DNA of 64,000 nucleotides from Chaetoderma sp. LZ-2023a (taxonomy: Eukaryota > Mollusca > Caudofoveata > Chaetodermatida > Chaetodermatidae), in the NCBI GenBank assembly GCA_034401795.1, contig CM067373.1, positions 85,656,021 to 85,720,020 of the forward strand, in the 5' to 3' direction. The position numbers and the translations under genes are program-made. The notes under the pieces are model-generated. The model was not told the origin of the DNA. It searched no databases and saw only the letters and a list, made by a program, of their open reading frames with translations. This document shows positions 51,191 to 64,000 of the stretch, in pieces (positions within the stretch are counted from its first letter, which is position 1; the number at the start of each line of letters is the position of its first letter).

Positions 51191-51432
51191 AACTTTTTTC
51201 TTTAAAGCGTAAGTAAAACGCTAAATCGCCATACCGCGTTAGTGTATGGAAATAACTCATCATATACCAACATAATAATATGGCAATAATATATATTTAG
51301 ATGTAGTTGCTATTTACCTAGATTTTTCCATCAAAAGTGGCGATTTCCGTGTCTTCCGAAAACAAAACTCGAACGCTTTGCTACTGGGCTATGACGTAAC
51401 ATCAGCGAGCGATCAGGAAGAAGATAGAAAAA

Positions 51433-51698
51433 ATGGCTGACAATTACATCAATAACATTGACTTTGTGACGGCGGAGATTTTTCGGATTATTCATCTGGA
51501 AGTAGCCACTACAATCATAACGATCTGATATCTGAAGGAAGTAGTGACTCGGAAATTGACGATAACGAGGTTTTGCCAAATTTATGTGTGTTACCCTATC
51601 AATTCGAGCCATTTCCAGACGATGCTGAGCAGCGGATTGAAAATGAAATAGACGGCGTTGACATTGAGGAACGGGCTGCCAGACATAAACTTAGACTG
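51433..51698 (+). CDS. P2X7-cytosolic-domain-like gene, first exon (broken frame)
   Basis: The frame starting after 51461 reads GGDFSDYSSGSSHYNHND, an acidic Ser/Asp-rich tract, then LPYQFEPFPDD, and ends HKLRL at a CTG|GTAAGA donor (after 51698, phase 0). Many invertebrate proteins with a P2X7-type cytosolic domain carry such an acidic N-terminus with a YQFEP motif (family knowledge). The likely start ATG at 51433 (MADNYINNIDF) is in another frame, and the downstream frame has TGA at 51459-51461. A small indel near 51462 therefore breaks the gene, or the start lies elsewhere. Confidence 0.55.
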
Positions 51699-52064
51699 GT
51701 AAGAAAAGTATACAATCCATCGTATTGACTATTGCCCTTTATATATAAATTAATACAGATCTACCACGCCACATTTCTTAGTTAACAATGATTTGCATAT
51801 TCAGAAAATTTGTTCCATTTTGAAAAACAGTGGAATGCGTTTCCGTGACAGTTGTGTCTCAAAGGAAGTGTCATGATATGGGTTTTATGGCAGATACATA
51901 TATTGTCGGGCCATAATTATTCGATCTGTGATGACAGAAAACGGACACTGTTATGTGTATATCTGGGAAGTCTTGATAATAACATAAAAATGTTGATAAT
52001 TCAAAATAACTGGCTTTAGAGTTTTGACGCCAGATCAAATTTTGTATTTTATTTTATATATATA

Positions 52065-52088
52065 CACCTGTGCAAAAGTTAAGCACCA
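52065..52088 (+). repeat. Tc1 left terminal inverted repeat
   Basis: cacctgtgcaaaagttaagc followed by acca. Perfectly complementary to 53698-53721. Preceded by a TA-rich flank. Confidence 0.95.
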
Positions 52089-52373
52089 GCAAAAACAATA
52101 GAACGTAGAAACATAATGCTACAACTAGGCTGCCATACTTTTTGTCCCCGCGTTAGCTGACATAATTCCAAGTACGAAATGCACATGCATGCATGACTTC
52201 ACGCCGCTTGATGTCCGTGCGTGGCGGGAAACAGCACACGTGTTCAGTTATGTAAAAGTCCAGTTTGAGGTGTAGAACATTACATACAGATTTAGGCGAC
52301 AAGATTAGGAATTTTGTGTTCATGACCGTGGTTTATTTGTACAGAGAGAATTAGCTCTTGATTGTGAACCGCT

Positions 52374-53300
52374 ATGGCAAGACGAAGGTTAAGTGATCGT
52401 GTGAAATGGCAAATCATAGGCATGCATACCACTGGTATGTCATGCAGAGAGATTGGCAGACAGCTGAACATTAACCATACTGTAATCAGTCGTTTGATTG
52501 CAAAACATGGGCAAACTAACGAGGTGAAGGACAGGCCTAGATCTGGAAGACCGAAGAAGACTACTGCCCGTGATGATCGAGCCCTAGTACGCCTTGTTAG
52601 GAGATCTCCATTCACCAACAGCAGAGTGCTCAGCCAGCAATGGGAAACGCGCAATAGAGTGTCAATGTCTACCGTCAAAAGGAGACTGTATGCTGCTGGC
52701 ATGAAAGCTAGGAGACCTGTCAGACGTCCTCTCCTCACTGCACACCACAAAGAGGAGCGTCTGAGGTGGTGCAACGAAAGAAGACACTGGAACATGAGAT
52801 CCTGGAGACGGGTACACTGGTCCGATGAAAGTCGGTTCCTGCTTCATGCCACAGATGGTCGAACTCGTGTATGGAGGTCCAGACGCACGGCGTACGACCA
52901 ACGTAACATCATGGAAGAAGTTCCATTTGGTGGAGGTTCCGTTATGATATGGGGGTGCATCTCATTTGATTGTAAGCTGGATCTGTTGACTGTACCTGCA
53001 ACACTAAATGGACAAAGATATCAAGATTCCATACTGGATAGAGTTGTGGTCCCTCATTTTGTAAATCATGCACCTGGAACCCACCCTATGTTCATGGATG
53101 ACAACGCCCGACCACATCGTGCTAGAGCTGTGCATGAATACCTCCGCCAGAATGCCATCGAAACCCTACCATGGCCAGCAAGGAGCCCTGACATGAACCC
53201 TATTGAGCATATCTGGGACATTCTGGGAAACATGGTGAGAAGGAGTGATCCTCCTGTGCAGAACCTACAGGAATTAACAGACGCACTCCATCTTGAATGA
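52374..53300 (+). CDS. Tc1/mariner transposase, prematurely stopped
   Basis: 308 codons. Residues 1-110 are the paired-like DNA-binding part, with a helix-turn-helix around GMSCREIGRQLNI and the GRPKK motif at 59-62. The catalytic triad is D151 (HWSDESRF), D243 (DNARPH) and E278 (NPIEHIWD), spacing DD34E, which is Tc1 type. The ORF ends at TGA 53298-53300, yet the same frame stays open for 32 more codons (QRIPQWRISRLV ... GGYTRY) to TAA 53397-53399. That would give 340 residues, the usual length. A single nonsense mutation therefore removes the last 10%. It may or may not abolish activity. Confidence 0.95.
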   Translation: MARRRLSDRVKWQIIGMHTTGMSCREIGRQLNINHTVISRLIAKHGQTNEVKDRPRSGRPKKTTARDDRALVRLVRRSPFTNSRVLSQQWETRNRVSMSTVKRRLYAAGMKARRPVRRPLLTAHHKEERLRWCNERRHWNMRSWRRVHWSDESRFLLHATDGRTRVWRSRRTAYDQRNIMEEVPFGGGSVMIWGCISFDCKLDLLTVPATLNGQRYQDSILDRVVVPHFVNHAPGTHPMFMDDNARPHRARAVHEYLRQNAIETLPWPARSPDMNPIEHIWDILGNMVRRSDPPVQNLQELTDALHLE

Positions 53301-53697
53301 CAACGAATACCACAATGGCGTATCAGTCGGTTGGTGACCAGCATGAGACGTCGTGTCCAGGCCGTCATCCAGGCACAAGGTGGATATACCCGGTATTAAT
53401 AATGACAGTCTCAAACTCGTGCACAGATGTTAAACTTCGTTTTCAGACACCATTAATGACAATCTAGCCACGTGTGTCAACTGTAGGGCAATAGTTGTCA
53501 GTTGTGTCAACGTAACCATATTCAGGCCTCGTTTTCAAGTTCAAACAAAAACATACGGTGTTTCCCCACCATCATAATCAGCATTCCTCTAGTTGCATTA
53601 TTACCTCTTGCACTAAGATGGATGGGTACATAAATGTTTATGCTATTGCTTTCTTCATAGCACATGAATATACCCTCGCATGTGCGTAAAAATAGGG

Positions 53698-53721
53698 TGG
53701 TGCTTAACTTTTGCACAGGTG
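53698..53721 (-). repeat. Tc1 right terminal inverted repeat
   Basis: tggtgcttaacttttgcaca followed by ggtg, then TA. Perfect complement of the left end. Confidence 0.95.
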
Positions 53722-54335
53722 TATATATAGATCTATATTTACAATCTGTTGAATTTTGCCGCTATAATAGACTTACCGCAATACCGTTAATTATTAATAA
53801 TTATATATCTGGCATGTAGCATCTCAAGCACGTAAGCACGAGGTCTATGTTCACAAGCATCTGAATAAGAAAATATATAGTTCACTATATGATATGTCAT
53901 GGAAACATAATAAGACTATAATGGATTTATTTTATATTTCCGTGACACATATATCCAATCATGAAATATTTAGGTGCCTTTGGCAACTTTCTCAGCAATG
54001 TAGAAATTTGATTGACAGCCAGACAGAGGCCCAAATGTGGGCAGCCAACATGGCCAAGCAGGGTAACAAATTACCCAAATGCCATTTAAAAACCAGGTGA
54101 CAATATATGATAGACATTTATAAGCAGAGACAGATCTGACTTTTGCAATGATCTAGCCACTAGGTTAGCTAAATACTAATTTTGTTACCCAAATACTAAA
54201 AATACTAAATATGTTAGCCACATATTTACTGCAATGTTACACATGAACATGTTTGTAGTCGGTTAATACTATCAATTCTAGTTATTCTACAGACCAAATA
54301 CAATAGCGTTTTAAAGTAATATTTTGAAAGAAATG
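53722..54335. other. intronic or intergenic stretch
   Basis: Contains 'gcacgaggtctatgttcac' at 53836-53854, whose reverse complement appears twice near 55129-55178. No exon recognised. Confidence 0.4.
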
Positions 54336-54430
54336 TGTTGAATATTTTGAAATTAATTTGACTGTCCAGAAGCTGTTGCTGTCTGGATGAAACCGCTTTC
54401 AGTCATATTAGTTTTAAAACATTCAACAAC
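54336..54430. repeat. dispersed hairpin, diverged copy
   Basis: tgttgaatattttgaaatta pairs with tagttttaaaacattcaaca; the inner arm 'ttgactgtccagaagc' is partly lost. Confidence 0.75.
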
Positions 54431-55023
54431 ATAGACAGAGATTGTTACTTTGCAATTGATATGCTGGAATTTCAGGTTTTAAAGGAGTGTTCTAGTCAGA
54501 TTTCTGGGAGTTTTAAACATTACATACATGTATATGGATTTTAAAACACATAAAGTCTTCACCTGACAGATTTACATGCTTTTATGTTCCATGATTCTCC
54601 CTCTAGAATCACTGACATTACTTGTTAACTATTGGTGCTGTTTTCATATGACTTGCACTATATGAAAAAAGCAACAATACTCAAATTATAAGTTACTCAG
54701 GCACACAACCTGTCGATCTGTCATAAATTAGTGTCCTGTTGCTGAATTGTATCTCTGTATCCATATATGATATATGCAAAAATTCTAAAGGATCACAGGA
54801 TCAGTTGTTAATTTTCACACACACACCCCTCACCCCCCCCCCCCCCCCGCTCACCCGAGACTGTGCCCAAGACAGGCTGAGAGTGTCAGAGAATAAAGTA
54901 AATATATACATGGAACACTTCATTAATATCTTGGTAGCAGTAGAGCTTGAGATAACCAGAAACTACAAGATGAGGTCAATTAATCTTCATATTTACAATT
55001 ACGATAGCTAATCCGTTGCGATC

Positions 55024-55126
<103 letters not shown>

Positions 55127-55306
55127 TATGAACATAGACCTCGTGATCTATGATCTATTTATGAACATAGACCTCGTGCTTATATATAGACTCTCAGACT
55201 GTCATGTATGTGACAATTCACATATAAATACATCATTTCTTCAATGTAAAATATTTTTTTCTGCAATGGACTCGCATTTGACATTTTGATTGAACATGTT
55301 TTTCAG

Positions 55307-55785
55307 GTGTACATGTGATAACTGTCAAGTTGTGGGCAGTATAAATGAGTGTTGCTGTTGTCGTGAGATCTTGCAGGTGGAAAGACGTATGGCAGAGGAT
55401 GAGTGTCTGGACGGATGCATCACTGAACATGCAGGTTTTAATGCAGTCTCTTTGAATAAATATGTACTGGATGTGACATGCCTACAATACAGGCAGCAGT
55501 ATGGAAGAGACGCATATGATGGACCAGAACACAAAAGGTACCGCCATATTTCTTACCGACAACTTGTAAGATGGTGTTGGTTATTTCTAGGCAGAAATGT
55601 TATGGTTGTACTTCCAGCCTGTGCTGTGTCGTGCATTAGGGCCCATTTTCCCACCACCAGGCGATGAGAATGATTTTGAGTTTATTGGTTTTCAACCTGC
55701 CCAGTCACCATCTAAACCATCTAGATGTATGCTACATTTTTCATTTCAATTGGAAGTTGTTAGATGCCAAGTGAAATACATGTAA
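55307..55785 (+). CDS. P2X7-cytosolic-domain-like gene, main exon (apparent frameshift near end)
   Basis: Follows a tttttcag acceptor. It reads CTCDNCQ, a CCCC cluster, GCITEHAGFNAVSLN, LQYRQQYGRDAYDG, YRQLVRWCW and VVLPACAVSCIRAHFP. This matches the Cys-rich C-terminal cytosolic domain of P2X7 receptors, also found as stand-alone proteins in invertebrates; its cysteines bind zinc. The frame stops at 55665-55667. The +1 frame continues PPPGDENDFEFIGFQPA, which fits the family's ...GxYxGF ending, so a 1-base insertion near 55640-55650 is likely. Entry phase is 2, not matching the phase 0 donor at 51698, so an unseen small exon must lie between, or the gene is decayed. No P2X channel domain is visible. 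Confidence 0.75.
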
Positions 55786-56177
55786 GATTGCATTGGTCTT
55801 CAAAAATGTATATTTGCAGGCTAAATCCTATGTTTCAAGTTTTACATTTGTACCACTGGCATAGCTGACTTCATAACTGTGCCATATAATCAGGTGGTAC
55901 ATGTTCAGATATGGTCTTCTCTTGGTCTGCAAATGAATCTTAACCAGTTCACCAAATTAATTCCCCATAGCGCATTTCTAAGGCAACCATACAGGAAAAC
56001 TGTTGAATATTCATGACAATAAGTCATGTCGTTAAGAATTTACTTCTTCAGGGATTTCTTGGTGAAGGGGTTAAGATTTGTCAAGGAAAAATTTAATTTA
56101 ATGACATTTAACTTACAAAAATCTTGAATGGACAAATTTTCCCTCAATTTTATTTTCTTAAATTAATTTTTCTCATA

Positions 56178-56275
56178 GAAAATGTCCACTTGCAGACCAA
56201 GAAATTATTTTTGACAATTTCTCACTGGAATAACTGCCTTGGTTATCGATCTAGTAATTCCAGCTTAGAAAATAC
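56178..56275. repeat. second hairpin family, degraded copy
   Basis: 'gtccacttgcagaccaagaa', 'actggaataactgccttggt', 'tatcgatctagtaattccag'. Only parts of the stem still pair. Confidence 0.6.
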
Positions 56276-56660
56276 CAAACCAAACATCAGCCAATTATCA
56301 AACTGGGCTCCAAAACCTACATGTACGGTGAGAAACAATCATTCTTTAATTTATGACATGAAGCATATTTGTCAAATTGATGTAATTAGATCAGCGAAAT
56401 ATTCTTAAAACCTGTTTTCCGCTTCCGAATGTCATTTCCCTTGGCATATGACTACAAGCATCTATGAATCCTCTAACATTTATAATATATCATACATTAT
56501 ATTTCCTTATATTTACAATTATTTTGTAGGCAAGTTTCACATGAATTGGTCTAAAGGTTACAATTTGTATACACATTTAGATTAAATGGGAAGATCATGT
56601 TTAACCTTTTCATCAATAAATTCCCCATATATCTCAATTTCAAGACACTAATAAAGGAAA

Positions 56661-56752
56661 GGTGTTGGATATTTTGAAATTAATATGAGGGAGGTTGTAG
56701 CTGCCTCAGGCTACAACAACCTCGAGTCATATTAACTTCAAAATATTCAGCA
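56661..56752. repeat. first hairpin family, well-formed copy
   Basis: 'gaggttgtagctgcctcag' pairs with 'ggctacaacaacctcgagtc'; the outer arms pair gttggatattttgaaatta with aacttcaaaatattcagc. Confidence 0.85.
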
Positions 56753-56904
56753 GAATATGCTATGAAGCGAGAGGAAATAAAATGTTCAGGGATTTGTCGG
56801 TGAGCGGGTTAAACGGCTTGTTTGGTTCGGTGTAAGATTAGCATATTGTTTATAATTAATCTGTCCAACAATTGTATGGATAACTGACATCAATCGAAGG
56901 TTCA

Positions 56905-57035
56905 ACTTTCTCAAAGAAAATATCCTTTTGCAGTCTAAGAGATTATTTTTTGTAAATTTACCACTGGAATGACTGGTTCGGTTATCGAGCAAGTCATTCA
57001 GTGGTAAATTTTCAAAAATAGTTTTCAAGACCACT
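56905..57035. repeat. second hairpin family copy
   Basis: 'tttaccactggaatgactgg' pairs with 'agtcattcagtggtaaattt' around 'ttcggttatcgagcaa'. It lies just downstream of the last exon of the minus-strand gene. Confidence 0.8.
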
Positions 57036-57069
57036 GAAAAAGTCTTTTGCTGGGTTGAGTGTTAAAGGT

Positions 57070-57224
57070 TTAAATAACAAATCGAGATCTGAATTGTTGA
57101 ACAGCTTGATCTTTGTCAGGGTGTTCCGCTGTATGGCAAAGAGGCATTGGTATGTCCTCTCTGGCAGCTTCTATTTTGTGGTAAACTACTTCATACAGGT
57201 CATGTTGAAGATCACCCACATACT
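57070..57224 (-). CDS. last exon of transposase-like gene
   Basis: Acceptor tttcag before 57224. It completes a split Glu codon and reads YVGDLQHDLYEVV ... AVQQFRSRFVI, stop at 57070-57072. 155 bp, phase consistent with the exon at 58289-58437. Confidence 0.85.
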
Positions 57225-60200
57225 CTGAAATTAAATACCGGCACATGTATGATAATTTTTACATTTCATATATACTAGATCTATACATTTCTTCCAATTC
57301 TTGGTAAGTAAGCAAGTACAGATTAAATATTTTGGTCACTGGATCAGTTAGCTAAGTCAGTCAACCCCACCTAAGGCGAGAAGCCTAATGTAAACACTGT
57401 GTTTCAATCCGCAATCATATGACCAACTCATAACTGACTTTCTGCCACCCAGCCCCTACCCCATGTACCGCCCTTGGGGCGCAGTGTATTCTAAACATTG
57501 TCTTGCAATCTGCAGGAATATGGTACCTCACATAACAAATTTGATTGACTTAGTTACACCATCTGACAGTCTGAGAGGAGATAGCTGGACCAGTTTGAGG
57601 CCATAGCAATTTATCCCCGTTGTTTTTCCTTTGTTATCTTTTGAGGGATTTATAGTAAATATGCCGATTTCAATTTCGCTGTCACAACTGCTACATAATA
57701 ACATAATAAGTAAAATTTGTCACCTTGGTCGTACATGGACACCGTTCTTTTTTGGTATCTACGCATAAAGCTTGCCGATCAAAATGAGACTGCATTGTTA
57801 ATCGCCATGGCTAAAGCAGGATCGATCGCATGTTCATTGTAATATTTAGCTGAATTTTGTATGAGTATTGTGGCCAGTGCCACCTATTTGTGTATGTGCA
57901 CCCTATCTCGTGTTTGAAAAATTACCAAATCTGGGATATCCATTCATATCATGGCTGGCTAGGGTCAAAGAATTGTAATGTTCTGAGGTCAAATAGTCAA
58001 TTATATAGATTGACTACATTAATATGTTGGCCATAACTCTGGAATGCAGCTTTTTATGCAAGGTAGAATGACATAATTTAGCACATATATTCATATTACG
58101 GCTAGCTGGAATGGTTGAGTATCAAGCCAAAGTATCAAATATATAGGCCATGGAATCCCTAAGTGCATACTGAAATAAAAATTTTTGGCTATGATTCTGG
58201 AATGTAAGAAGGTAGAATCGCTAAATTTGGCACTTCCCATTCATGTTGTGGGGCACAGATCAATGCATTGAATTGCATGAGTCCTTACCAAATGTACATT
58301 CTTTCTTTATAGGCCTCACTATGTGACCTCCCTTCTTGTACTTTGGGTACATTATTGCAAACTGGTGCTTGCCTTCCTTGGTGACAACTTGCTCACGCCC
58401 AGCATTCTCATTAAAATGCAATGCTGCTAATTGTAACCTGAAAATGAGTAGTAGTCCAAGTTATTGGCTAGATTTGAATGAAAGTAGTACAGATAAGGGC
58501 AATCATATTTTGTGTCACATTGTAAGGATTTTTCCGATCGCATGCAAAGTTGTGGACTGCTAACTAGTGTATGGTCACACAGGTAACATACAAATTTGAA
58601 AAGTTCTTGAATTTTGACATCATTCCGTGAAAGTGCTTAAATTTGAAATTGTACTTGAAAATGGCAGTTGGGTGAAGAAAAGTACTTGAAAATGTGTTTT
58701 TCTCAATATAGAGAAACGTTGCATACAATACAGGTGCACAAGGCTGCTGCTTATCAATTAACACTACATGAGCTGACATATCAGAGCATCTAATTGGCCA
58801 AATTTCCTGCTCCCCGCCCCCCCCCCCCCACTAAATATAGCCTGATTGTAGAGTCCTTGAAAATGATAGACATGCTCCTGACCTTGAAAAGTGCTTGAAT
58901 GAACCTGTCAAGTTCTTGTATGAAACATGACACACCCTTGTGTTAAAACTTGAGCCAAACCGAACCATGCATGTAAGTTTTCAAGCTACCCATAGATCCA
59001 GAGAGCGATCCAGTCCAGATCCAGGTTTACTATCCAGACCACAGCCGAAATTCTGGAAATCCTAGTTATGGGGAAGCGCTTCTGTTGTGCTAAGATTTGA
59101 GTGTAATCGAATCAGTAAGATTCACAATGTCCCATCATTACTTTCACACATGGGTCATTTGACCTCACTACGCAACTGGCTCATCAGAACCATACGCACA
59201 TGCACCCACTATAGTCTCTTCCAATTACGGGGCGGCGGTAATAAAGTATCCAATCCACATGTCATACTTTTGTAGATAACAACACTGGAAAACTTCTGAC
59301 TGTAATGTTGGTTTTAACAAAATTTATTTATTTGATATTGAAGCAAAAATAGTCTGTTTAAACCAACTTACATGTAAAACAAATATTTGTATTGTAGAAG
59401 GCGTTTCTAAGCTGGCCTCAGCTAGCCTTGATATTTACAATTCCACACACACGTACGTCCTCCCACATCCTAACAAACCTGCTCTTCATGGCTGTATATC
59501 CAAAATGAAACATCTTTGGCGCAAAGGTTATGAGAGTACTATGGTAGCCCTCTAGGTTTGATGTCTGACCATCACAGCTCATTTTCCGTATTGACTGTAT
59601 CAGACATCTTTTTGTGAGTAACTCCGTTAGATTCTCGAAGACTTCTGAACCTGCAAATACATGAATGCGATTGAGTAATTAGGAAGCCCTACATGTGATT
59701 GAGTAATTAGGAAGCCCTATAGTAATCACCGCGTCTGTCTGTCCGTCCGTCTGTCCGTCCACAATATCTCGTAAACAGCATATCATACAGTACAGAACCT
59801 CTTCAGATATTTTAATGAAACCTGGTGTATGCCTCAGTTATGATACGCAGATGTGCCTTTTGAAGGATGAAAATGGGCTTTTAATGCAAAAACTCACGAT
59901 TTTTTTTTATTTCCTCGTGAAAAACATATCATACAGAATCGCTTAAGATAATTTAATGAAACTTGGCAGGTGGCTTCTTTATTATGGGTGGATGTAAGCC
60001 TTTGAAGGATTGACCATTCAATATTTTTCGGTGAAAATGGGCTTTTTAATGCAAAAACTCCGATTTTTGTCGAATTTCCTCGTAAACAGTATATTATACA
60101 GAACCGCTTCAGATATTTGATTAAAACTTGGTGTGACACATCAAACAGTTGTCTATGCCTATTTTATGCCACAACGGTGCACTAAGCTTGCCGTTATTTA

Positions 60201-63200
60201 CATGGCTGAAACCAAGCCCGCATCAGGCCAGATGCGTGTTGGCAGGTTGGGTACAGTTGACTCTCATGTTCATGTATATCAACCAGATGATCTAATATTG
60301 GAATCCACCTGGCCTCTGCCATGTTGTCATCACCATCGCTTGTTCTGGCGCACCAATATAGATGATTGATGATGCTTGGGAGCCACTTTTGGACAAGACA
60401 ATTTCCCTTAGAGAAGTTGTCCAGGCTTTTCTGCAGACCTACAAAGCATTTGTGTGAATAGAAGCTATTGTCCCAAATTTGAGTATTCTAGCTGTTCAAA
60501 AGATGTGTTGTTTCAAGACAACTACACGTATACACGACAGCTGTTGAATATTATGTAACTAATTTGACTGGAACACACTGCTGCCATATGCACCAACGGT
60601 TCCCAGTCAAATTAATGAAAAAAATATTCAACATTCCAAAAGAATATTCCTTACATCATAAAGGATATGTCACTTTATAGTAGAGTATGTAACTATTAGT
60701 TATAATACTGTGCTATTCATAATGGTATATCCAAACGTTGCTGTCGTTTCTGCTGCTGTTTCTGCTGCTGTTCTCTTTATTTAATTTTCAGCTTGTCGCT
60801 TGCATCCATGGTGAACTAGAATATGGCATACACATGAGCCCACCTGTGGCCATACACCTGAGCACATCTACTTCTACATTACAAGATCATTAACAGGTGA
60901 TGAAGAATAGCTAGAATACGGCATACACATGAGCCCACCTGTGGCCATTAACAGATCATACTATTTTGATGAACAATCAACTATTCTATCTTCCCATCTA
61001 GCCCTACTTTATGAGAAAGTAGGATGGAATGTGAGTGAATTTGCACATTTGCTGCAAGAGTGAATGTAGGCTAATTGTTCTACTAACCCTTTAATGGTTA
61101 AGCCGGACAAAACCAGCTTCTGCAGTAGTCTTGAGGAATGTCAGGTAAAGAGAAGAGTGTTTAAAAAAATTTAACACGAATGACTGGGTCGATAATCAAA
61201 AAATACTATTCTCTTTATCTGCGATAATCAAAAAATACTATTCTTTTTATCTGCAGATGACCATACAATAACGAAATATTAAGATTTTCTTGACAGAATT
61301 TGACTAGTTACGGGTTAAACAGGTAAGTCAAGCTGGCCAAATCCTGGCCCTACTGTGGTCTTGAAACATGTCCACTTGCAGGCATAGAGACAATATTTTT
61401 TTAATTTACCACTAGAATGTATAGCTTGATAATCGAGCCAGTCATTTCACTAGTAAATTTAAAAATAATAATTTCACTATTCACTAAGCGATACTCTTAT
61501 GTTCTTCTTGCTCAAGCTTAGCCAGGAACCCTTTCACTGACAAATTCCAGGCCAAGTATATATATATGTATATGTCTTACGATATATACAATTTATTGTC
61601 TTGAATATTTTGAAATTAATTTAACTGGAAGCCATTGCTGCCTAATACCTTTCTTGTATGGTTGCTTTTAAAATGAGATGTGGAATTCATCGGTGAAAGG
61701 GTTGTTGTTGAAACCTTAGGATCAAGGTACATGTAATTGACAAAACAATCTCTGCCCACGGATTATGCACTACTTACCTTTGGCAATGTGCCATACGTCA
61801 TAGAAGTGTTTGATATTTGGTTGCTTCTCTCTCATCCGCTTTTGAATCTGAGGATGCCTGTTAGTTACTAGTTTAACATCTTTGTCGTTAATGACACGAT
61901 TCAAATTTTCTAGAGATCTGCGCAATCCTTCAAGCTCTATGCGGTAGCTAGACTTCACTTCAGTACTCTGAAATGTGTTACAATGGTAGAAATGTAATTA
62001 ATGCGATGTTAAATACTTAACCCAACACCCTGTGGAAAAAAGGGAAGTGATATTACAATCACCTCTGTCTGTTCATCCGGCTATCTCCTCTGAAGTCATT
62101 TGATCAAATTCAATCAAATTTGTTATGTGAGTTACTCTTGTGATTGCGGAAATTATTATCTGTCATGTCTATTTAAATGCAAATGCATCAAATATTAATG
62201 GTCCAGGTGAGCGTTACAGGCCCTTTGGGTCTCTTGTTAATGGAAAAACTAAACTGCGCAGTGTCTATCTATGGTGAGACAAAACACTTCTTAACCCTTT
62301 CACATTCAAGCTGGCCAAAAACGGCTTCTGCAGCCGTCTTGTGAAATGCCCATTTGCAGACCAAAAGAAGACTACTTTTGGAGATTTATCACTGGAATGA
62401 CTGCTTCGATAACCGAGCCAGTGATTCCAGTGAGAAATTTTCAAAAAGAAGTCTACTTGGTTTGCAAATGGACATTTATGAGAAAATTTAAATTTTCTTG
62501 AATAAATTTGCGGCTTAAAGGGTTAAAGTGCTATACTTTCTCATAAATTTGCTTCCATACATGTATCAGTAAACGTGGATATTAATGAACTCTGTGATAA
62601 ACATTGTTTTTGCGTGCCCGTAGTTTAGTTTGGCTGTAAATCATCACTACTTAACCTTTCCAATGATACGATCACAAACAATTGTGAGCGCGCTATGTGA
62701 CATCGACGACTGCCAAAATGTTTGAAATTTTAATGACAGGCTGACTTATACTTCTTGTGTGTTGGGAGTAAGAATTGTCTGTTTAATGTTTTCAAAATAA
62801 CCAGGCTGAAATCCGCTGCTGCATATTGCCTTCCAGGCATATTAATTTCAAAATATTCAAGATTTTTCCTGTATGGTTACCTTGAAGTAGATACATGTAT
62901 AGTGGATATCTCTTCGAATGGATCCAATTTTCATACATATATAAAAATAGTACATCTGTAAGCTGAATGAATAAATGGATCTCTTGTTAATATTTGTAGT
63001 CTAACACTATAAAAGACAACCTGTAGTAAGAGACCAAATGGATTTTCACTATCCAACTCTAGGAGAATCCAAAGAATCTGTTTTGAATTACATGTTATTT
63101 GTTGTTATTGACAATATAAATTTTGACACATTAATGGTCAGGATTCTTCAGAAGTTTGAAATTTTGGCTCAGTGAAAGCCCATTTGTTGGCCAAGAGAAG

Positions 63201-64000
63201 ACTATTTTTGAAAATTTACCACTGGAATGACTGGCTCGATTACCAACCCAGTAATTCCAGTGATAAAATTTCAAAATTAGTCCTCTTGGCCTACAAATGA
63301 ACATTCCTCAAGACCACTGCCAGAGCTGGCTTTTGATCGCCATGGTCAATAAAGGGTTAATTGTCTGCTAATAAGTATTAATTGGATTGCATTAAGTTTA
63401 CAAGTGTCTAATTTACAAAATTACCCTTGAATTCCCATGCGAATCCACATGGATTGTCGTGAAAATACAATGGGTGAATCTTAATGAGAATGGATTGTCA
63501 TCGAAATTCTGAAGTCGACGATTCTCTTTTGATTCTCCAATTCGGTGGTCACGTAATACATGTTTGACTGTATATTGAAAAAAACCCATAGAATAATGAT
63601 ACCTGTACAAGTTCCATACATATGATCTTGTTTTGCTCTGTATCATGCAAACTGTAACTACCGTATTTGGCACAGTGACCCATCGAATCGCAGCGGGCAT
63701 CACCAGCAAGGTTTTTGTTGTCCCTTTCCATAAGATTTACTAGAAGGGAATCTTGTTGTCGGACCCATACACGTCTGATGGCAGTATGCAGGTACAACTT
63801 CTGGTGTCTGAAGAAGGTCTGAGCAGAAATGGCTGCTAAGCCCCAAAATTTCAGAACACGCAGTAGTTTCCTGAGCAACGCACCAGCAAAGCATATGGCA
63901 GCAGACAATGACAGATTCCCATCTGGTATTGAACAAGTTTCTGGTTGGCTCTTCCATTGGTAACTCTCTCCACATGAGACACACTCCTGAGTTATAGTGA
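57070..64000 (-). CDS. spliced ISL3/MULE-like transposase-derived gene, 5' end off window
   Basis: Six exons (63603-64000, 61778-61967, 60202-60438, 59479-59650, 58289-58437, 57070-57224) join through five GT-AG introns with matching phases (0,1,1,2,1). They give about 433 uninterrupted residues ending at TAA 57070-57072. Signatures: a CVSC Cys pair; FFRHQKLYL; GDARCDSMGHCAKYGSY; LVTNRHPQIQKRM; FYDVWHIAKG; PSIINHLYWCA; DGQTSNLEGYHS; LAALHFNENAG. D...D/N...DxWHxxK...SNxxEG is the RNase H-fold layout of ISL3/MULE transposases (inference from motif order). I recall multi-copy uncharacterised metazoan proteins with the same blocks. At the second expected catalytic Asp (family TDRH) this gene has Asn (codon 61860-61862). 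Splicing and the missing acid suggest domestication or a recently dead copy. Confidence 0.85.
57225..58288. other. intron, no recognised repeat
   Basis: Last intron of the transposase-like gene, 1,064 bp. It contains loosely repeated phrases 'ggctggctagggtcaaag' / 'ggctagctggaatggttgag', about 135 bp apart. Confidence 0.5.
58289..58437 (-). CDS. exon 5 (visible) of transposase-like gene
   Basis: Acceptor cattttcag, donor G|gtaagg. Reads LQLAALHFNENAGREQ and then YPKYKKGGHIVRPIKKECTF, a Lys-rich region. 149 bp. Confidence 0.88.
59479..59650 (-). CDS. exon 4 (visible) of transposase-like gene
   Basis: Acceptor tatttgcag, donor AG|gtttgt (weak but in phase). Reads SEVFENLTELLTKR, DGQTSNLEGYHS and FAPKMFHFGY. 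The SNLEG Glu is the best candidate for the third catalytic acid. 172 bp. Confidence 0.88.
59690..60125. repeat. tandem repeat, units 145-168 bp
   Basis: 'ctcgtaaacagcatatcata' (59768), 'ctcgtgaaaaacatatcata' (59913) and 'ctcgtaaacagtatattata' (60081) head three diverged units, each with 'gaaaatgggctttt.aatgc' and a T-run. A (CCGT)n tract and a 26 bp duplication (gtgattgagtaattaggaag...) precede it. It lies inside an intron. Confidence 0.75.
60202..60438 (-). CDS. exon 3 (visible) of transposase-like gene
   Basis: Acceptor ctttgtag, donor T|gtaaat. Reads LQKSLDNFSKGN, WLPSIINHLYWCARTSDGDD and HLVDIHEHESQLYPTCQH. 237 bp. The plus-strand open frame at 60133-60369 is only its antisense shadow. 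Confidence 0.87.
60540..60635. repeat. first hairpin family, diverged intronic copy
   Basis: 'gttgaatattatgtaactaa' and 'tttgactggaacac' pair imperfectly with 'gttcccagtcaaattaatga' and 'aaatattcaac'. Confidence 0.72.
61370..61474. repeat. second hairpin family copy
   Basis: 'aatttaccactagaatg' pairs with 'catttcactagtaaattt' around 'gataatcgagcca'. Lies in an intron. Confidence 0.72.
61778..61967 (-). CDS. exon 2 (visible) of transposase-like gene
   Basis: Acceptor acatttcag, donor G|gtaagt. Reads STEVKSSYRIELEGL, VKLVTNRHPQIQKRM and KHFYDVWHIAKG. Carries the Asn (61860-61862) in place of the expected catalytic Asp. 190 bp. Confidence 0.9.
62195..62240. repeat. end of a dispersed repeat
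   Basis: 'ggtccaggtgagcgttacag' then 'gccctttgggtctcttgtta'. May be the opposite end of the repeat type seen at 51095-51190. Confidence 0.45.
62344..62478. repeat. second hairpin family, well-formed copy
   Basis: 'gcccatttgcagaccaaaag' pairs with 'cttggtttgcaaatggacat', 'tatcactggaatgactgctt' with 'gccagtgattccagtgagaa'. Stem about 60 bp per arm. Intronic. Confidence 0.85.
63179..63306. repeat. second hairpin family, well-formed copy
   Basis: 'cccatttgttggccaagaga' pairs with 'cctcttggcctacaaatgaa', 'ttaccactggaatgactggc' with 'cagtaattccagtgataaaa'. Further outward 'caagaccactgccagagctg' follows. Intronic. Confidence 0.85.
63603..64000 (-). CDS. exon 1 (visible, incomplete) of transposase-like gene
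   Basis: Runs off the right edge. Reads TITQECVSCGESYQWK, LSLSAAICFAGALLRKL, ISAQTFFRHQKLYL and AGDARCDSMGHCAKYGSY, ending ICMELVQ at CAG|gtatca. The CVSC pair may be part of a zinc site that starts beyond the window. The true start codon is not visible. Confidence 0.88.

Follow-up and report, generated by a model that had tools for sequence, protein, structure and literature searches.

Kolobok transposons, as described in the available part of PMC9587614, are characterized by TTAA duplications, 5'-RR/YY-3' ends and a C/DxxH motif between the second catalytic Asp (D2) and the catalytic Glu (E) of the transposase, and their Kol0 lineage by an additional protein, KolX, which resembles residues 476-595 of human P2X7; the same source, published in 2022, holds that a fusion with KolX gave rise to P2X7. 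The THAP domain is not mentioned in that part of PMC9587614. It is given as usual in Kolobok, together with the DDE (Asp-Asp-Glu) triad and an H2CH motif, in the accessible part of PMC6004289, which also describes a set of 24 domesticated proteins in Xenopus: the DDE triad has been lost from 19 of them, and two THAP-domain motifs have been kept in all 24. Here we analyze a transposase gene on the minus strand of C15:85656021-85720020, a 64-kb stretch of a 2.44-Gb eukaryote assembly (the window), along with the 29 kb past its end, where coordinates above 64000 are extended ones on the same contig. The gene almost certainly belongs to a decaying, two-ended copy of a DNA transposon that moves by cut-and-paste and falls into the Kol0 lineage of the Kolobok superfamily. 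Copies are named below by contig, the C15 copy being the element studied, and the C8 copy was compared as two pieces. Splicing was read from sequence alone, on the basis of border sequences, GT/AG dinucleotides and frame continuity.

Ends and copies of the element

The C15 element measures 18,549 bp from TTAA to TTAA, from window position 51202 to extended position 69750 (C15:85707222-85725770), so that its part in the window, 51202-64000, contains the right end in the orientation of the gene (minus strand), and the left end lies in the extension. The right end, TTAA with the terminal inverted repeat, occupies 51202-51222 on the plus strand (TTAAAGCGTAAGTAAAACGC), and the same end is followed by unrelated DNA in C8; the long homology between C15 and C8 stops at about 51188. 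The left end reads TTAAAGAAGAAGTACAATGG at extended position 69750. After TTAA the element is bounded by AG...CT, which corresponds to 5'-RR/YY-3', and the C10 element likewise. The sequence-only reading of the window had found no terminal inverted repeats near the 3' end of the gene; they do exist, at 51202 and 69750, but lie well away from that 3' end.

The nature of the termini was established on relatives. A sharp left end, TTAAAGACCAAG..., preceded by unrelated DNA, is common to C10, C14 and C2, and a sharp right end, which reads TTAAAGACCAAG... on the other strand, to C10, C17, C14 and C2; these shared ends identify TTAA as the target and AGACCAAG as the start of the inverted repeat, which in the C10 type is AGACCAAG/AGACCAAG and imperfect further on. 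The comparison of C10 with C17 alone had pointed to C10 index 8771 as the left end and to TA as the target; this was rejected, as the C14, C2, C12, C16, C3 and C4:5.85 Mb copies extend further left. The C17 copy seems to be truncated on its left side, where no THAP match was found; over 14.3 kb it is 99.0% identical to C10. The C10 element spans about 20.4 kb, and lengths in the family range from 18.5 to 20.4 kb. Both ends of C8 are almost the same as those of C15, and the left end of C4:56.5 Mb is almost the same as that of C15, with different flanks. In total, TTAA ends with unrelated flanks were seen on both sides in C15, C8, C10, C14 and C2, on the right only in C17 and on the left only in C4:56.5 Mb. 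From the presence of TTAA at both ends we infer that it was duplicated at insertion.

The genome was searched with the left (155 bp) and the right (262 bp) end, and 40 matches were scored for each among 332 and 215 candidates, respectively. For either end all 40 scored matches begin no more than 3 bases from TTAA: they start at query positions 1-4 (left) and 1-5 (right), TTAA itself starting at query position 4. Among the scored matches, seven loci carry both ends facing each other at distances of 1.8 to 20 kb, and short two-ended elements are present, e.g., at C11:175.37 Mb (1.8 kb) and C8:63.69 Mb (3.7 kb). Multi-copy loci with terminal inverted repeats had been named beforehand by the sequence-only reading as an observation that would speak against its own interpretation, and the many copies with TTAA-bounded ends are precisely such loci. 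The C15 core protein gave at least 91 exon-level matches in the genome (90 of 320 candidates scored).

Two observations concern the relatives of the left end. Thirty of the 40 scored left-end matches (e.g., C10:18094554 and C9:123827334) are 82-85% alike to C15 and may constitute a separate, perhaps non-autonomous, subfamily. Two elements sharing the C15 left end, each read over 1.4-1.5 kb, show a mutual likeness of 86-88% in three pieces totalling about 0.8 kb.

The transposase gene and its convergent partner

Six minus-strand core exons join in phase at GT/AG into one stop-ended frame of 432 residues, which confirms the predicted architecture (about 433 residues had been expected). Exon 1 (63603-64000) contains the first catalytic Asp (D1) within GDARCDS and has counterparts in C10, C17, C8 and C5; the exon is cut by the window end, and its frame runs on to about 64128. 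Exon 2 (61778-61967) carries VTNRH, in which the second catalytic position is Asn, and DVWH, the D-x-x-H motif. Exon 3 (60202-60438) lies between D2 and E, and its last base before the donor is altered in comparison with C4, C5, C10 and C17. The third catalytic residue, Glu in NLEGY, is encoded by exon 4 (59479-59650); exon 5 (58289-58437) is supported by the spliced frame and by counterparts in relatives, and exon 6 with the stop codon (57070-57224) by counterparts in C10 and C17. The exon border sequences are unique at these places. Since C10 and C17 possess an identical set of six core pieces, with exon 3 (the exon compared) having its borders in the same place, the predicted splicing is very probably correct; in view of these relatives and of the genome matches to the core protein, the six-exon open frame is not due to chance. 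In this respect the sequence-only reading was borne out: the locus holds a transposase-derived gene with several introns, whose motifs stand in a DDE-type order. In one relative, C8:66524285-66529246, there are two first core exons separated by about 4 kb, each interrupted by a stop at an identical residue, as would be expected after a local duplication.

Reading the contig past 64 kb, as had been advised, yielded not only the left terminal inverted repeat but also further predicted exons on the minus strand upstream of core exon 1: a THAP exon at about 69482-69223 (PF05485, expectation value (E) 2.7e-13), a short exon near 68700-68580 and an acidic exon at about 66313-66097, all in extended coordinates outside the window. 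The THAP, second, acidic and core exons follow in matching order in C10, and the THAP exon was found in C10, C14, C2 and C4. Nine transposase exons are predicted for the C15 family. The THAP exon has a start codon in C4, C10, C14, C2 and C8, which is lost in C15, and no other in-frame ATG precedes the THAP exon of C15. Between D-x-x-H and E, where the H2CH zinc-finger motif of Kolobok would lie, several His and Cys residues (NHLYW, IHEH, TCQH) were noted by eye in C15, and similar ones in C10.

Tail to tail with the transposase gene lies a second gene, whose ballast exon, 3' of the transposase gene and on the opposite strand, was found through its conservation of 78.7%. This exon (55290-55667, plus strand; frameshifted near its 3' end) matches the P2X7 ballast domain P2RX7_C (PF20478) with E 6.7e-7 and 29.8 bits at a cut-off of 23.5, and its counterpart in C10 also exceeds the cut-off (E 2.1e-9). 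In a search of PDB the C10 ballast exon matched residues 477-593 of the P2X7 chain 6u9v (E 9.9e-4), and no PDB chain was hit at E 0.1 with the C15 ballast exon by itself. A 5' exon of the same gene (51462-51728, plus strand) has counterparts in C8 (92%) and C10 (55%) and contains no in-frame ATG in C15. Within 20 kb downstream of the core, a ballast match was present at 29 of 55 core loci, convergent in all 29, and absent at the other 26; an upstream one was present at 3 of 55, the chance expectation for a downstream partner being 0.05. Judging by these sequence matches, the second gene is KolX-like with a P2X7 ballast domain.

TTAA at both ends, RR...YY termini in both C15 and C10, a DDE core with D-x-x-H between D2 and E, and a KolX/ballast gene that in C15 and C10 scores above the P2RX7_C cut-off place the element within the Kol0 lineage of Kolobok; the terminal inverted repeats and the THAP domain in a predicted exon are further features of this superfamily. 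In such an element the THAP domain would bind the element ends, excision and insertion at TTAA would be the work of the RNase H-like core through its three acidic residues, and KolX would serve as an accessory factor at some step. After its insertion the C15 copy has drifted. The element is recently dead and represents a new family member of a kind already known.

Several points weigh against this assignment or against the decay of the copy. The inverted repeat of C15 is imperfect throughout (AG...AAGTA.AA). The Kol0 placement was made by gene content and by the ends rather than by phylogeny with reference Kolobok sequences, and the joining of the THAP, short and acidic exons to the core is a prediction. 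A start further downstream could still yield a THAP-less protein. The C15 core frame is free of stops, and C4, C5 and both C8 pieces carry one or two stops each; by our own estimate, such a frame under drift alone would be somewhat lucky. Exons contain a smaller share of gapped bases than introns in each of the four close comparisons, with C4, C5 and the two C8 pieces (1.2/6.8%, 3.6/4.4%, 0.3/0.8% and 0.2/0.5% in exons/introns); constraint may have left this trace, or it may reflect simple repeats in the introns. Finally, the ratio of non-synonymous to synonymous substitution (dN/dS) is below 1 in three of these four comparisons (0.62-0.73).

Loss of the second catalytic residue and decay of the C15 copy

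The VTxRH motif had been correctly recognized in the C15 core, but it conceals the loss of the second catalytic Asp. D2 is Asn in C15, C5 and C8 and Asp in C4, C10 and C17, while D1 (GDARCD), D-x-x-H (DVWH) and E (NLEGY) are kept wherever covered, the residues being assigned by motif and not by structure. This Asn, common to three copies, is the sole mildly unusual point of the element. Among 1184 positions, six sites group C15 with C8 against C4 with C5, and two sites support each of the two other splits, which is a small sample; with the second C8 piece the corresponding counts are 2, 1 and 0 among 673 positions. With Asp in C4 and Asn in C5, either Asp was lost a single time and later regained, or it was lost repeatedly, or that split is wrong. 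Considering that Asn-bearing elements occupy three sites (C15, C8 and C5, with both TTAA ends seen in C15 and C8), an element with Asn may have spread when its catalysis was already lost, either carried by relatives with an intact triad, its DNA-binding but non-cutting protein repressing the family, or with AAC read as Asp via adenosine-to-inosine (A-to-I) RNA editing; we regard such a history as improbable.

The sequence-only reading had proposed an intact gene under selection as a host gene. Indeed, the C15 core is stop-free, as are the core frames of C10 and C17, but the gene as a whole is not intact: the start codon is lost, the donor-side base of exon 3 is altered, D2 has become Asn and the second gene is frameshifted. 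Since D2 is Asn and the start codon is lost, the C15 copy could hardly be self-mobile. Substitution in exons and introns of C15 is nearly equal (5.5/5.5% against C4, 5.7/5.2% against C5, 3.8/3.5% and 3.6/3.2% against the two C8 pieces), and dN/dS amounts to 1.78 against C4 (200 codons), 0.62 against C5 (404 codons), and 0.73 (237 codons) and 0.66 (176 codons) against the C8 pieces. Of 21 codon changes private to C15, 17 are non-synonymous and 4 synonymous, some of those at residues 2-6 being possibly exon-edge effects. Against C10, which belongs to another subfamily, dN/dS is 0.11 over 473 codons with synonymous divergence near saturation, and between C10 and C17 it is 0.13, calculated on 3 changes only. 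The low ratio against C10, the higher ones against close copies and the private changes fit a family selected while active, with the C15 copy apparently drifting since its insertion.

A domesticated host gene that lost catalysis and is selected for its retained DNA binding, as proposed for many Kolobok-derived genes of Xenopus, would account for a stop-free core among relatives with stops, for the scarcity of gaps in exons and for Asn at the second catalytic position, and the Xenopus proteins (PMC6004289, in the part cited above) provide a precedent with respect to both the lost DDE triad and the kept THAP motifs. Nevertheless, exons have accumulated substitutions as introns have, most of the private codon changes alter the protein, the start codon is lost and one donor altered, and both transposon ends are still there; besides, Asn does not mark the C15 locus, because the C5 and C8 copies share it. 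Proceeding from the equal substitution, the private changes, the lost start codon and the ends present, we reject the host-gene interpretation as very unlikely. Apart from the absence of stops in the core frame, no observation made here favours recruitment by the host, and a multi-intron frame that stays open in surroundings of dead long interspersed nuclear elements (LINEs) does not in itself indicate a host gene.

Membership in the ISL3 or MULE superfamily in the strict sense, which the order of motifs had suggested, can practically be dismissed. The likeness is weak: in a profile comparison with ISL3 proteins, which came from contigs of bacterial appearance in this assembly, D1, D2 and D-x-x-H stand in register over 101 columns, with E 0.02 and a probability of 2.3% (a control with one Tc1 sequence gave E 0.46 over 9 columns). 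The check with hidden Markov models of both families, proposed along with the sequence-only reading, brought neither above its cut-off. The Pfam MULE model (PF10551) matched the C15 core with E 0.068 and 14 bits, about half of the cut-off of 27.6, and weak Mutator matches also remained below the cut-off; the ISL3 model gave no match to the core up to E 1, and an NCBIfam scan of the core produced nothing relevant. Nor was the PF01610 cut-off reached at the C15 locus: the 10 matches of this model in the genome are all located on C18, C2384, C2430 and C2539, and none at the C15 locus or on C1-C17. The TTAA target is not known from ISL3 elements, nor are THAP and KolX/ballast partners known from ISL3 or MULE elements. 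piggyBac, which shares the TTAA target, was also rejected, as the ends are AG...CT and no piggyBac model is among the Pfam matches of the core.

Neighbouring frames and comparison with known systems

Between the exons of the second gene, a Tc1/mariner-like transposase frame is located at 52368-53300 on the plus strand (HTH_Tnp_Tc3_2, E 3.7e-17; DDE_3, E 3.9e-11; Pfam), which is not part of the Kolobok element proper. The C10 element holds a very similar Tc1 frame (343 vs 310 residues) at another place and in the opposite orientation relative to the transposase, and these differences suggest independent insertions of one Tc1 family. No transfer RNA (tRNA) genes were found in the 64-kb window. 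Elsewhere in the assembly, a second related group of transposases (C9:10129381, C17:42536220 and C17:51361237) has 36-40% identity and a single-exon core, in which the open frames span 632-674 residues; a THAP match precedes the core by a few kb. On contig C18 (4.76 Mb), of the size of a bacterial chromosome, transposases of the ISL3 family were matched five times (best E 3.4e-68); the contig would belong to a symbiont or a contaminant.

Among described systems, ISL3 (IS204/IS1001/IS1096/IS1165) resembles the C15 core in D1, D2 and D-x-[FW]-H, which stand in register in the weak profile match. The closest counterpart is Kol0 (Kolobok-1_XT type; Kapitonov and Jurka 2007, as cited in the available part of PMC9587614), with which the C15 family shares TTAA, RR/YY ends, the DDE triad with D-x-x-H, and KolX; it may differ in its length of 18.5-20.4 kb and nine predicted exons, and the C15 copy differs in the Asn at D2. 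The family thereby adds a further example of the Kolobok-P2X7 ballast link published in 2022 (PMC9587614, same part). KolobokP, as outlined there, belongs to the same superfamily and likewise has its second gene downstream on the complementary strand, but is distinguished by long terminal direct repeats and a His-Me nuclease, whereas the second gene of C15 encodes a ballast protein instead; no long terminal direct repeats were noticed in the C15 element, no search having been aimed at them. The Xenopus XKol proteins, according to the accessible part of PMC6004289, likewise combine THAP and DDE, and some of them keep the frame and lose catalytic residues, as the C15 copy does; yet the domesticated genes of Xenopus are reported to be orthologous and conserved between two species, whereas the C15 locus displays no clear purifying selection.

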